A stretch of 64,000 nucleotides of DNA from positions 62,001 through 126,000 of the forward strand of contig NZ_CP104990.1 of NCBI RefSeq assembly GCF_030323265.1, in the 5' to 3' direction. Shown in pieces: positions 49,464 through 53,120 of the stretch (position 1 is the stretch's first letter; each line of letters starts with the position of its first letter). Below the pieces are notes generated by a model that did not search any database, was not told the DNA's origin, and saw only the letters and a list, made by a program, of their open reading frames with translations. The stretch is from Terrirhizobium terrae (GTDB lineage Bacteria > Pseudomonadota > Alphaproteobacteria > Rhizobiales > Rhizobiaceae). The position numbers were made by a program, and so were the translations under genes.

Positions 49464-49509
49464 TTGACGCGGCCGTAAAAGATGTATTGAAAATGTATCT
49501 TTTACGGCC
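49464..49509 (+). promoter_or_regulatory. NsrR-type operator/promoter of the NO-response operon
   Basis: At 49479-49501 the sequence reads AAGATGTATTG-A-AAATGTATCTT, matching the NsrR consensus (AAGATGCATTT-n-AAATGCATCTT) at most positions. It is embedded in a 39-base near-palindrome, GGCCGTAAAAGAT...ATCTTTTACGGCC, at 49471-49509. A TTGACG at 49464-49469 is a candidate -35 element, which would place the operator over the -10 region. The PAS gene starts 73 bases downstream. No gene lies in the rest of the 332-base gap from 49242. Confidence 0.75.
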
Positions 49510-49573
49510 GATGTTCATCTCGCCAGCCGATAGGGCTGTCTTGAACCATCCGCCTCTGGAAAGGACATCCACA

Positions 49574-49990
49574 ATGAACAACGATTTGAACGCTAAGGTT
49601 CTCGATGCACTGGATCGTGTCATGGTCATCTCGACGACAGATCTGCAGGGAAACATCACCTATGTGAACGACCTGTTCTGCAAATTGACCGGTTACAGCC
49701 GTGAGGAACTCATCGGCAAGCCCCATAACATCGTCCGGCACCCGGACGTCCCGAAGAGCGTCTACAAAGAGCTCTGGGATACGATCAAGGCGGGCGAAAC
49801 CTGGTCGGGTGCGTTCCCGAATGTCGGCAAGGGCGGCGCGCTATATGTTGTAGACACCACCATTCAGCCTGTTCGCGACAGCGAGGGCAAGGTTGTCGAA
49901 TACATCAGCATCCGCCGCGTCATCAACGACCTCATGGCTGATTTCGACCAGCTCAGAATCGTCGAAAGACATTTACGATCAATACTATAA
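49574..49990 (+). CDS. Aer-like PAS-domain protein
   Basis: 138 residues, a single PAS domain with little else. The core DLQGNITYVNDLFCKLTGYS, REELIGKPHNIVRHPDVPKS and LWDTIKAGETWSGAFPN follows the pattern of FAD-binding PAS of the Aer type (PHNIVRHPD is diagnostic). It has no methyl-accepting or kinase domain. It may be a soluble redox or oxygen sensor or a partner of the diflavin reductase encoded 20 bases downstream. The ATG at 49574 was chosen because the PAS fold starts there; upstream codons cover the operator. First gene of the NsrR-linked operon. Confidence 0.82.
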   Translation: MNNDLNAKVLDALDRVMVISTTDLQGNITYVNDLFCKLTGYSREELIGKPHNIVRHPDVPKSVYKELWDTIKAGETWSGAFPNVGKGGALYVVDTTIQPVRDSEGKVVEYISIRRVINDLMADFDQLRIVERHLRSIL

Positions 49991-50010
49991 CTGATGAGGC
50001 TGTGACCATC

Positions 50011-51561
50011 ATGTCACTCGGCATATCGCATATTGTCATAGGCGTCGGATCGGAATCCGGCAATGCTTCAGGCCTTGCCGCTCGTCTTGCCGCCGATCCG
50101 TCATTCCGGCCTTTTGCCCCAAGAGTCGAGAAGCTTGCAACGCTCGATATCGATACACTGGGGCGCGGTGGCGTGCTCGTCATCATATCAAGTTCATTCG
50201 GTGACGGAGAGCCGCCGGCTACGGCGGAAGGTTTTCTTGAGCGACTGAACGCGCTGCACGCCCCTTTGAATGTGCAATATGCCATCTTCGGACTGGGTGA
50301 TGTCGCTTACCCGAACTTCTGCGGCTTCACCAAGACCTTGGATGCTGCTCTCGCTGCCTGCGGCTCGACGTCTGTCGTAAACCGCGTCGACGCCGACACC
50401 GACTACGAAGAATTTTTCGACATCTGGCGCAAGACGCTGTTGGCAACGCTCAAGGGCGATCGCGAGGCAGGGAAGTCGCTTGCTCTGCAGGTCAAATCCT
50501 ATGGGGAGAATAGCGCCTACAGAGCGCCTATAGTCGAGCGCGAGAGGTTGAATGGAGGTGCCCCTTACGCGTGGCACTACCGGTTCGATATCGCGGGCAG
50601 CGGCATCAAATATCGCGCAGGGGATAATCTCTATGTCGTACCGGCAAACGATCCCGGCCTTCTGTCACGCCTTGCGGATTGGTTCGGGAGCGACGATGCC
50701 TACGAACTCTTCGGCCCGAAGGAAATTAGAAATGTCGGAAAGTCCTTCCTGCGAAACCTCGCCAGGCTTGCTCAAAACGATGCGCTCAAAGAGCTCCTGA
50801 AGAGCAGCAACAGGGCATCGTTGGAGACCTATCTATATGGTCGAGATCTCCTGGACTTGCTGATGGACTTTTGTGCTCGGGAGACTGTGACTGCATCTGA
50901 ACTTGCTCAGCATTTGCCCGATATTCAGCCGCGGGCTTACTCAATAGCATCGGATGGAGATCCGAACCATGTAGATCTCTGTGTTCGCGAAGTGTCGTAC
51001 AATCTCCAAGATCGAGATCGACAGGGGGCTGCGACCGGTTTCCTTGGACGCGCGCAAAGCACCGCACCGATTTTCGTGCGTGCCAATCCACGTTTCAGGC
51101 TACCCGCCGATGAAAAGGCTCCTGTCATCATGATCGGAACCGGGACTGGTATCGGTCCATATATGGGCTTGCTGAAGAACGCTGAGCAGTGCGAAAGATC
51201 TGCCGAGACATGCCTGATATTCGGTGATCGCCGTAGTGAATCGGACTTTCTTTATGAAGAGAGAATCCGAAGGTGGCAGGGAACTGGTCTACTCAGCAAG
51301 CTGATCACCGCTTTCTCGCGCGATGGCAATCAACCCTATTATGTGCAGCATGCGCTCTTCGATAATTCGAAGCATATCTGGCGTTTGCTTGATGATGGTG
51401 CTCATGTCTATGTGTGCGGAAGCAAGACGAATTTAGGACAGTCTATTGACGACGCGATTCATCGGATTGCAGTCCAGACTGGAGATCTGACGGAGGATCT
51501 GGCTCACGAGTTCTTGCTGCGCCTGAACCAAGACCAGAGACTGCACAAGGAACTCTACTGA
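50011..51561 (+). CDS. CysJ-like NADPH diflavin reductase
   Basis: 516 residues. Flavodoxin domain (1 to about 150): GVGSESGNASGLAARL, IISSSFGDGEPPATAEGF, FGLGDVAYPNFCGFTK. FAD-binding connecting domain: RYDIAG-like YAWHYRFDIAGSGIKYRAGD, then RAYSIASDGDPNHVDLCV. NADPH domain: APVIMIGTGTGIGPYMGLLK, CLIFGDRRSESDFLYEE, VYVCGSKTNLGQSIDDAI, ending in an aromatic (KELY). Domain order matches sulfite reductase flavoprotein CysJ and P450 reductases. No sulfite reductase haem subunit is near; instead a truncated globin and a ferredoxin follow, so it may reduce those. GTG at 50002 is an alternative start. Confidence 0.87.
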   Translation: MSLGISHIVIGVGSESGNASGLAARLAADPSFRPFAPRVEKLATLDIDTLGRGGVLVIISSSFGDGEPPATAEGFLERLNALHAPLNVQYAIFGLGDVAYPNFCGFTKTLDAALAACGSTSVVNRVDADTDYEEFFDIWRKTLLATLKGDREAGKSLALQVKSYGENSAYRAPIVERERLNGGAPYAWHYRFDIAGSGIKYRAGDNLYVVPANDPGLLSRLADWFGSDDAYELFGPKEIRNVGKSFLRNLARLAQNDALKELLKSSNRASLETYLYGRDLLDLLMDFCARETVTASELAQHLPDIQPRAYSIASDGDPNHVDLCVREVSYNLQDRDRQGAATGFLGRAQSTAPIFVRANPRFRLPADEKAPVIMIGTGTGIGPYMGLLKNAEQCERSAETCLIFGDRRSESDFLYEERIRRWQGTGLLSKLITAFSRDGNQPYYVQHALFDNSKHIWRLLDDGAHVYVCGSKTNLGQSIDDAIHRIAVQTGDLTEDLAHEFLLRLNQDQRLHKELY

Positions 51562-51570
51562 CAATCGAAG

Positions 51571-51600
51571 CCGGTTGCTTGCTGTAAGGGAAGCAACCGG
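51571..51600 (+). other. hairpin between diflavin reductase and globin genes
   Basis: CCGGTTGCTT (51571-51580) pairs perfectly with AAGCAACCGG (51591-51600) over a 10-base loop, 10 bases after the reductase stop. No U tract follows. It could be a weak terminator or an mRNA processing site; the 160 bases after it hold no supported gene. Confidence 0.55.
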
Positions 51601-52221: not shown

Positions 52222-52231
52222 GGCGGAATTC

Positions 52232-52570
52232 ATGGTGTATGTGGTCACGGAAAACTGCATAAAATGCAAATACATGGATTGCGTCGAGGTCTGTCCTGTC
52301 GATTGTTTCTACGCGGGCGAATCTATGCTGGTCATTCATCCGGATGAGTGTATCGATTGCGGAGTTTGCGAACCGGAGTGTCCCGCGGAGGCAATTCTTC
52401 CAGATAGTGATCCGGGTGCCACGAAATTTTGGCTGGCGCTCAATCGCAGATATTCGGGGCTCTGGCCCAACCTATCCATCAAAGGATCGCCACCGAGCGA
52501 TGCAAGAGACTGGGATGGACTGCCGGATAAGGTCAAATATTTGAGCGATAACGCACACCAGCCGGACTGA
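52232..52570 (+). CDS. fdxA: FdxA-type seven-iron ferredoxin
   Basis: 112 residues. First cluster motif ENCIKCKYMDCVEVCPVDCF, second DECIDCGVCEPECPAEAI, the arrangement of [3Fe-4S][4Fe-4S] ferredoxins such as Azotobacter FdI, with the usual 50-residue C-terminal tail. It starts 10 bases after the globin stop, so it is co-transcribed. It may carry electrons between the diflavin reductase and the globin, or serve Fe-S repair under NO stress. Both are inferences; the cofactor assignment is solid. Confidence 0.92.
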   Translation: MVYVVTENCIKCKYMDCVEVCPVDCFYAGESMLVIHPDECIDCGVCEPECPAEAILPDSDPGATKFWLALNRRYSGLWPNLSIKGSPPSDARDWDGLPDKVKYLSDNAHQPD

Positions 52571-52617
52571 CGCTTGGTGAGAAGTCCGCTATTCGGATAA
52601 CAGCGACCTAGTTTGTC

Positions 52618-53076
52618 TCATATGCTCGGTGACGCAGCACTATTGTCACGCATTGCATCGAGTTCGGCCACCATGGACCGGTCTAGCAGCATGTCTTTTA
52701 AGGTAGCTTGATCTAATTTTGCCAGGAAGGCTTTCAGCGCTTCTGCAAGCAACTTCTTCAATCCGCAGCTCGGTGTGATTACACACTGATTGTCGCAACC
52801 GAAGCATTCGACGATAGCGAAGTCCGGCTCCGTCGCTCGTATAACTTCACCGATGCGAATATCTTTGGGATCCCGACCCAGCCTGAAGCCCCCGGAACGG
52901 CCCCTCACGGAACTCAGAAATCCTTCACGAATGAGTTGGTTTACTACTTTCATAAGATGGGCGCGAGAAATCCCATAGGCTCTGGCCGTCTCTTCAATCG
53001 TCAAAAGCTTTTCCGGCTTGGCGGCCGCATACATCAGCACTCGAAGTGCAAAATCCGAATACTGCGTCAGACGCAT
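52618..53076 (-). CDS. nsrR: NsrR, Rrf2-family [Fe-S] nitric-oxide-sensing repressor
   Basis: 152 residues from the ATG at 53076. MRLTQYSDFALRVLMYAAAK and the HTH IEETARAYGISRAHLMKVVN with VRGRSGGFRLGRDP are characteristic of NsrR. The cluster-binding Cys region, ECFGCDNQCVITPSCGLKKL, has cysteines at 91, 94, 98 and 104. NO destroys the cluster and relieves repression. The gene is convergent with the PAS-reductase-globin-ferredoxin operon, and good NsrR-like sites are found before that operon and before nsrR itself, which supports the assignment over IscR-type Rrf2 proteins. Confidence 0.88.
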   Translation of the reverse strand: MRLTQYSDFALRVLMYAAAKPEKLLTIEETARAYGISRAHLMKVVNQLIREGFLSSVRGRSGGFRLGRDPKDIRIGEVIRATEPDFAIVECFGCDNQCVITPSCGLKKLLAEALKAFLAKLDQATLKDMLLDRSMVAELDAMRDNSAASPSI

Positions 53077-53097
53077 TCTTATCACCCTATTTCGCTT

Positions 53098-53120
53098 AAG
53101 ATGCACTTAATCTATATGTT
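53098..53120 (-). promoter_or_regulatory. NsrR-like site upstream of nsrR
   Basis: The plus strand reads AAGATGCACTT-A-ATCTATATGTT. The left arm matches the NsrR half-site AAGATGCATTT at 10 of 11 positions; the right arm is degenerate. It lies 22 bases upstream of the nsrR start, in position for autoregulation. The rest of the 298-base gap up to 53374 shows no gene. Confidence 0.5.

Follow-up and report, generated by a model that had tools for sequence, protein, structure and literature searches.

The 64,000-nt stretch of Terrirhizobium terrae DNA analysed here (the window) comes from a genome of 5.9 Mb in 3 contigs that is 91% complete. It carries four co-oriented genes, for a PAS protein, a CysJ-like diflavin reductase, a group III truncated globin and the ferredoxin FdxA, beside a convergent gene for a regulator of the NsrR type (Table 1). 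The open reading frame (ORF) and domain calls agree in this with an earlier interpretation of the locus made from its letters alone (the sequence-only reading). In this study, we focused on the first two genes, the PAS-diflavin pair, which looks like an overlooked member of the nitric oxide (NO) stimulon, and on the likely role of the globin as its electron acceptor.

Table 1. Features of the locus in window coordinates
Feature	Position	Strand	Evidence
Inverted repeat, 13-bp perfect arms, enclosing the NsrR-like 23-mer AAGATGTATTGAAAATGTATCTT (49479-49501)	49471..49509	.	sequence reading
Stand-alone PAS protein, Aer/NifL-type, 138 amino acids, without output domain	49574..49990	+	Pfam PAS_3/PAS, PDB matches
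CysJ-like diflavin reductase, 516 amino acids: flavodoxin, FAD and NADPH domains	50011..51561	+	Pfam, cysJ model, AlphaFold model
Diflavin-globin gap, 198 bp, RNA hairpin with 11-bp stem	51562..51759	+	sequence, folding
Group III truncated globin, 153 amino acids, GTG start (TTG 51745 possible)	51760..52221	+	Pfam Bac_globin, 2ig3
FdxA-type ferredoxin, 112 amino acids	52232..52570	+	NF045490
NsrR-type Rrf2 regulator, convergent to fdxA	52618..53076	-	NsrR model, cluster ligands
NsrR-like site, 16/20, 22 bp upstream of nsrR start	53098..53120	.	23-mer scoring

The diflavin protein carries Flavodoxin_1, FAD_binding_1 and NAD_binding_1 in one chain, the arrangement of the cytochrome P450 reductase (CPR, CYPOR) and CysJ fold. 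Its AlphaFold model (mean predicted local distance difference test score, pLDDT, 89.5) found CysJ and CYPOR as best matches in the Protein Data Bank (PDB), and the 50 best-listed PDB matches of this structure search were all CysJ, P450 reductase or their fusions. Electron transfer from NADPH to flavin adenine dinucleotide (FAD) and on to flavin mononucleotide (FMN) is predicted from these known families. The likeness to CysJ, the sulfite reductase flavoprotein, lies in the flavodoxin, FAD and NADPH domains, but the protein scored 331.6 bits with the cysJ equivalog model, below the curated cut-off of 668, aligned from model position 60 only, lacks the CysJ N-terminal segment and has no NIR_SIR neighbour. 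The absence of a haem subunit of sulfite reductase, stated by the sequence-only reading, holds at the locus and fails for the genome as a whole, in which two NIR_SIR stretches lie in a single 574-codon frame on contig C1.

The PAS protein matches the Pfam family PAS_3 with 67.4 bits, and its best PDB matches include the FAD-binding PAS domains of Aer (8dik) and NifL (2gj3); with the NifL model it scored 84.1 bits, under the cut-off of 242. Passages of PMC9668731 give H53, R57, W70, N85 and R115 as the residues of Aer that contact FAD. When these positions were mapped by alignment offset, T27 being left out of the comparison, each was retained in at least 99% of 74 PAS proteins encoded beside related diflavin reductases. 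At the position of Aer M69, the window protein has Leu and 95% of the 74 rows have Met. With the Aer contacts conserved, binding of FAD by the PAS protein is predicted from known families. It shares the fold and the FAD contacts with the domains of Aer and NifL but has no output domain and stands alone before a reductase gene. An S/A-K-E/D motif is present near the C-terminal end in 118 of 120 relatives among the matches listed. Close homologues (P0287 and P0296, about 70% identical) with the same tail were seen in metagenome-assembled genomes (MAGs) of cyanobacteria.

Among the named families, the Rrf2 protein of the window fits NsrR best (135.7 bits, against 131.8 bits with the RirA model), at a score below the curated NsrR cut-off (NF008240, 182 bits). 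This is the highest NsrR score among the genome's Rrf2 proteins that were scored, the five others reaching 22.6-97.6; a sixth other place matching PF02082 is a partial hit below the Pfam cut-off. Assignment to RirA was rejected because the true RirA is a different gene (264.7 bits, above the RirA cut-off). The ligands of the NsrR [4Fe-4S] cluster are Asp8, Cys93, Cys99 and Cys105, according to passages of PMC5411485. In our alignment the Asp and the three Cys are retained in the window protein and in 12/12 Rrf2 proteins of related loci, the window included. Sensing of NO by an NsrR with all four ligands is accordingly what its known family would predict.

NsrR-like 23-mers were scored from AAGATGYATT half-sites, with a maximum of 20. 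The sites that the sequence-only reading had placed before the operon and before nsrR are the two best 23-mers of the window (20/20 and 16/20), and all others score at most 14. A cognate palindrome thus lies at the target promoter and, in weaker form, at the regulator's own promoter. The inverted repeat before the PAS gene holds the sole exact match of the genome to AAGATGYATT-N2..4-AATRYATCTT. One further NsrR-like site with at most 3 mismatches exists in the genome (C3:168336-168358, or L085 1501-1523); it lies just ahead of a response-regulator-like ORF, 42 kb past the end of the window. A separate NsrR site for the globin was considered and rejected, as the best 23-mer in the diflavin-globin gap reached only 11/20.

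The PAS and diflavin genes are 20 bp apart and the globin and fdxA genes 10 bp. With TTG 51745 as the globin start, the gap between the diflavin and globin genes shortens to 183 bp. The stretch with the hairpin (51569-51601) folds only mildly better than shuffled sequences (z -1.7), and no terminator-like T-run was found in the gap (51562-51759).

The PAS-diflavin pair and the sites before it

To collect related loci, genomes were scanned, one for each species, with 27 aligned diflavin proteins. This gave 81 loci, of which the best 80 were kept and joined by the window to make 81; four (L073, L079-L081) fall outside the family in the diflavin tree, leaving 77 family loci. In 74 of these, from alpha-, beta- and gammaproteobacteria, the PAS gene immediately precedes the diflavin gene, at a spacing of 3-101 bp where measurable (approximate start). 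The exceptions are a fragment in L078 and two Lautropia loci, L018 and L024, in which the diflavin and globin genes are adjacent and no PAS gene was found in the locus DNA examined. Beyond the pair, the neighbours vary by lineage, as judged by eye in 27 listed loci. The conserved unit is not the set of four genes described by the sequence-only reading but a core of PAS and diflavin, since the gene-order comparison places a globin behind the pair in 10/77 loci and FdxA near it in 1/81. A tblastn search of the 81 loci with the genome's own NIR_SIR protein found none in the 77 family loci, the window included, and one match in total, in the outgroup locus L073.

The diflavin family is sparse around the window. 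Among 297 genomes of the taxonomic family to which the window belongs, 2 carry it (E 1e-110), and among 398 genomes of its phylum 4 do (E 1e-95), its own genome included in both counts, the other three of the latter coming from one genus. The diflavin tree, built by a quick method with 18 near-duplicate or broken loci omitted, puts the window among rhizobial loci without globin. Because this tree mixes classes, the family may have been transferred laterally. A PAS-diflavin locus labelled Bacillus subtilis SK7B5 (L020) falls inside Stenotrophomonas and is likely a contamination or mislabel. At L050, from an Osedax symbiont, the ORFs that diverge from the pair resemble, by eye, subunits of cytochrome bd oxidase. 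A plasmid collection gave 45 records that match the diflavin protein, all at less than 60% identity; 30 among the matches listed stood at 30.5-34.6% and are therefore other CysJ-like proteins. PADLOC, given the PAS, diflavin and globin proteins, returned no match for any of the three.

For 74 loci, regulatory sites were sought in a 350-bp stretch around the start of the PAS gene, and the same stretch of 731 other mechanically called ORFs from the same loci served as control. The seven loci without a called PAS gene (L018, L024, L073 and L078-L081) do not enter these counts. With up to 4 mismatches allowed, the NsrR 23-mer occurred in 22 of the 74 PAS upstream stretches and in 1/731 controls. 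Its distribution follows lineage: it was present in Enterobacterales (6/6), alphaproteobacteria (5/7), betaproteobacteria (8/9) and marine gammaproteobacteria (3/6), and absent from the loci of Pseudomonas (0/10), Stenotrophomonas (0/27) and Pasteurellaceae (0/9). The 22 loci come from 13 named genera, from the window's own genome and from one MAG that lacks a genus name. The published NsrR core gATGyAT-N5-ATrCATc, at up to 2 mismatches, gave 22/74 against 3/731 controls, and a half-site score of at least 17 was reached by 23/74 PAS upstream stretches and by 2 of 2,220 shuffles. In two Osedax loci (L050 and L056) a palindrome before the PAS gene is like the NsrR site with T for G.

According to passages of Rodionov et al. 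(PMC1274295), Pasteurellaceae and Pseudomonadales lack NsrR, hmp is under NorR control in the latter, and NorR binds three tandem sites ahead of a sigma-54 promoter. Three GTCA-N3-TGAC elements, each with no more than 1 mismatch, and a sigma-54 promoter after them were found before the pair in 4 of the 10 Pseudomonas loci and in none of the 731 controls; three controls had the triple without the promoter. Judged by these sites, the pair appears to parallel hmp in the swap from NsrR to NorR in Pseudomonas. In Stenotrophomonas, an FNR-type box (TTGAY-N4-RTCAA, at most 1 mismatch) stands at -91 to -126 in 27/27 loci, against 19/226 controls, and is exact in 22/27 loci, against 4/226. Among the 76 other family loci, 11 have an Rrf2 gene close to the pair, and six of the seven such proteins that were scored favour NsrR over RirA. 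The link to NO and NsrR drawn earlier at this locus is thus supported beyond it, by NsrR, NorR or FNR-type sites before related pairs in three classes.

The globin, the ferredoxin and the missing flavohaemoglobin

The window globin passes the Bac_globin threshold narrowly (PF01152, 21.3 bits, cut-off 21). Its sole match in a sequence search of the PDB was the group III globin Ctb of Campylobacter (2ig3, E 1.6e-18), and a Tyr, two His and a Trp aligned with Ctb, which we take to be the haem-pocket residues of a group III globin, are retained in 14/14 rows, Ctb included. Such a globin is encoded directly downstream of the diflavin gene in ten loci, the window and nine others, all from Burkholderiales (L014, L018, L023-L025, L037, L053, L070 and L072). 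Since it is adjacent in only these 10/77 loci, the globin is not the general partner or acceptor of the diflavin reductase. Behind the globin gene of L037 and L072 come genes for NnrS (287 bits), for a CopD-like protein below the cut-off and, farther on, for a major facilitator superfamily (MFS) protein. An NnrS search of the window's genome gave no match, and gave none in the control genomes either.

Globin trees were built with 60 of 119 homologues among the matches listed, the more careful one without L025, which has a long branch. The Burkholderiales globins form a single clade (100/100), outside which the window globin groups with its three closest relatives, and a joint clade of the globins linked to the pair appeared in 0% of 200 bootstrap trees. 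Two separate captures of the globin are likely on the evidence of these trees.

FdxA was identified with NF045490 (160.9 bits, above the cut-off of 135); its '7Fe' character is assumed by us from the family. The sequence-only reading had given the ferredoxin a possible step in the electron chain, which is without comparative support because FdxA was found near the pair in 1/81 loci, the window itself. A second FdxA is encoded on contig C1.

No PF00042 globin was found in the window's genome, as far as it is complete, and the genome thus has no detectable flavohaemoglobin Hmp. Hmp would be a PF00042 globin fused to a reductase, and the window globin belongs to PF01152. The earlier claim that the module is distinct from Hmp is compatible with this result. 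PF00042 globins were likewise absent from 17 of 25 other chosen genomes with the pair.

A proposed NO-induced redox module and its rivals

We propose that the locus encodes an NO-induced redox module in which electrons from NADPH pass through the diflavin reductase, likely to the group III globin, as a split substitute for Hmp; in our judgement, this sequence-based proposal is evenly poised. NO would release NsrR, and the pair and the globin would then be made. Electrons from NADPH would move from FAD to FMN within the reductase and would reach the globin haem directly or via the PAS protein. The globin would destroy NO as a dioxygenase, or as a reductase without O2. The PAS protein might dock on the diflavin protein by its conserved C-terminal tail and act as a redox gate or an electron relay. 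FdxA would be an accessory confined to the window lineage and might serve as a reserve ferredoxin during NO stress. A more ambitious form of this proposal, which we put forward tentatively, is that the PAS-diflavin pair is an unrecognised NO-defence enzyme of proteobacteria, in which a stand-alone FAD-PAS protein is both dedicated redox partner and gate of the reductase. The pair would belong to the NsrR, NorR or FNR-type NO/anaerobic regulon of each lineage that has it and would have captured a group III globin twice, each time forming a split flavohaemoglobin; no class III globin would have had a dedicated electron donor assigned to it before.

Several results weigh against the proposed module. 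With regard to the globin, 67 of the 77 family loci have none adjacent, and the approximately unbiased (AU) test did not reject a single globin origin once the three relatives were added (p-AU 0.134), for which reason a second independent recruitment was dropped as a proven event. The 198-bp gap may put in doubt the cotranscription of the globin and fdxA genes with the pair. Eight of the 25 genomes with the pair also hold a PF00042 globin, in frames of 393-433 codons that suggest Hmp, one of the eight having an additional match in a 141-codon frame. NirK was not found in the window's genome. The last 14 or so codons of the window PAS gene (49940-49993) are out of frame with its relatives, so the conserved tail motif is lost in this copy; since the genome is in 3 contigs yet only 91% complete, an assembly error at this place is possible.

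Other points concern the regulatory sites. The motif rules were tuned after an initial look at the sites, and the 22 loci with NsrR sites are not independent because they include near-copies (Serratia, Vandammella). No NO-regulator site was recognised in 9/9 loci of Pasteurellaceae, in 6/10 of Pseudomonas or in L063, L064 and L025. An FNR-type box need not signal NO, and the published DNR motif TTGAT-N4-ATCAA, at up to 1 mismatch, was found in 12/27 Stenotrophomonas loci against 11/226 controls. Neither the NsrR nor the RirA cut-off is reached by any of the seven Rrf2 proteins scored from other loci, and the one from L037 favours RirA.

The main rival agrees with the favoured reading on the NO regulon and differs on the acceptor. 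It holds that the pair is a self-contained NO-induced unit in which the PAS protein accepts the electrons of the diflavin reductase on its FAD and acts on partners encoded elsewhere, either as a redox sensor or as a scavenger based on flavin, while the globin works independently or with a generic reductase. The near-constant partner of the reductase is indeed the PAS protein (74/77) and not the globin (10/77), the tail motif is kept in nearly all of the PAS relatives listed (118/120), and 17 of the 25 other genomes with the pair have no PF00042 globin. However, a group III globin gene lies right behind the pair both here and in Burkholderiales, two groups that the globin trees keep apart, and the two Lautropia loci hold diflavin and globin genes with no PAS gene in the locus DNA examined. 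We regard this rival as rather unlikely.

It is improbable that the diflavin reductase instead feeds FdxA for the repair of Fe-S clusters or haem under NO stress, with the globin incidental: fdxA does lie 10 bp from the globin gene and is a second copy beside that on contig C1, but no other locus of the 81 has FdxA near the pair. CysJ models and structures are among the closest and a NIR_SIR protein is encoded elsewhere in the genome, but an assimilatory CysJ with a remote haem subunit is hardly credible: the score is about half of the cut-off (331.6 against 668 bits), the cysJ model is unmatched over its first 59 positions, the 76 other family loci and the window have no NIR_SIR in a search that does find that of L073, and sites of NO regulators stand in front instead.

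Relation to known systems

In Hmp, a single polypeptide combines a classical globin with one FAD. The proposed module shares with it a chain from NAD(P)H over flavin to globin for NO, but consists of a separate FAD/FMN reductase, a PAS protein and a truncated globin. Campylobacter Ctb (2ig3) has in common with the module the group III truncated globin; we know of no reductase linked to Ctb, and to our knowledge few in-cell reductants of truncated globins have been identified. Passages of PMC3820574 describe Ctb as controlled by NssR. In those of PMC1274295, hmp stands under NsrR, or under NorR in Pseudomonadales, as the pair appears to do.

A separate globin and reductase for NO are already known from two systems. 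Bjgb and Flp of Bradyrhizobium japonicum (passages of PMC4724949) likewise detoxify NO in a rhizobium and are encoded by two genes, one for the globin and one for the flavoprotein, but Bjgb is a single-domain globin encoded with the flavoprotein in a nitrate-assimilation operon, and those passages mention no PAS protein or NsrR. The operon of glbN and a ferredoxin reductase in Legionella (passages of PMC3820574) also places a truncated globin and a reductase that is a protein of its own under NsrR control, whereas GlbN is of the cyanoglobin type, the reductase gene is that of a ferredoxin reductase, and no PAS or diflavin protein is mentioned there.

No description of the PAS-diflavin pair was recognised in the open-access literature, most subscription papers lying outside the search. 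Term searches did not find 'sulfite' or 'flavodoxin' in the text seen of PMC1274295, 'sulfite' or 'ferredoxin' in that of PMC4648194 on rhizobial globins, or 'sulfite reductase' in that of PMC10256816 on the NO response of Pseudomonas, and passages of PMC9686644 cover known systems only. As far as the open-access literature searched shows, the pair as a likely member of the NO regulon and its link to a group III globin are new. A reductase gene directly before a group III globin gene in two distant groups offers a testable electron donor. Through the comparison, the likely NO stimulon of three proteobacterial classes also gains a unit of two genes, which annotations often give as sulfite reductase and PAS protein. 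In this unit, a PAS domain may be the partner of an enzyme instead of a signalling module. In databases, the reductase of the pair often appears as part of sulfite reductase.

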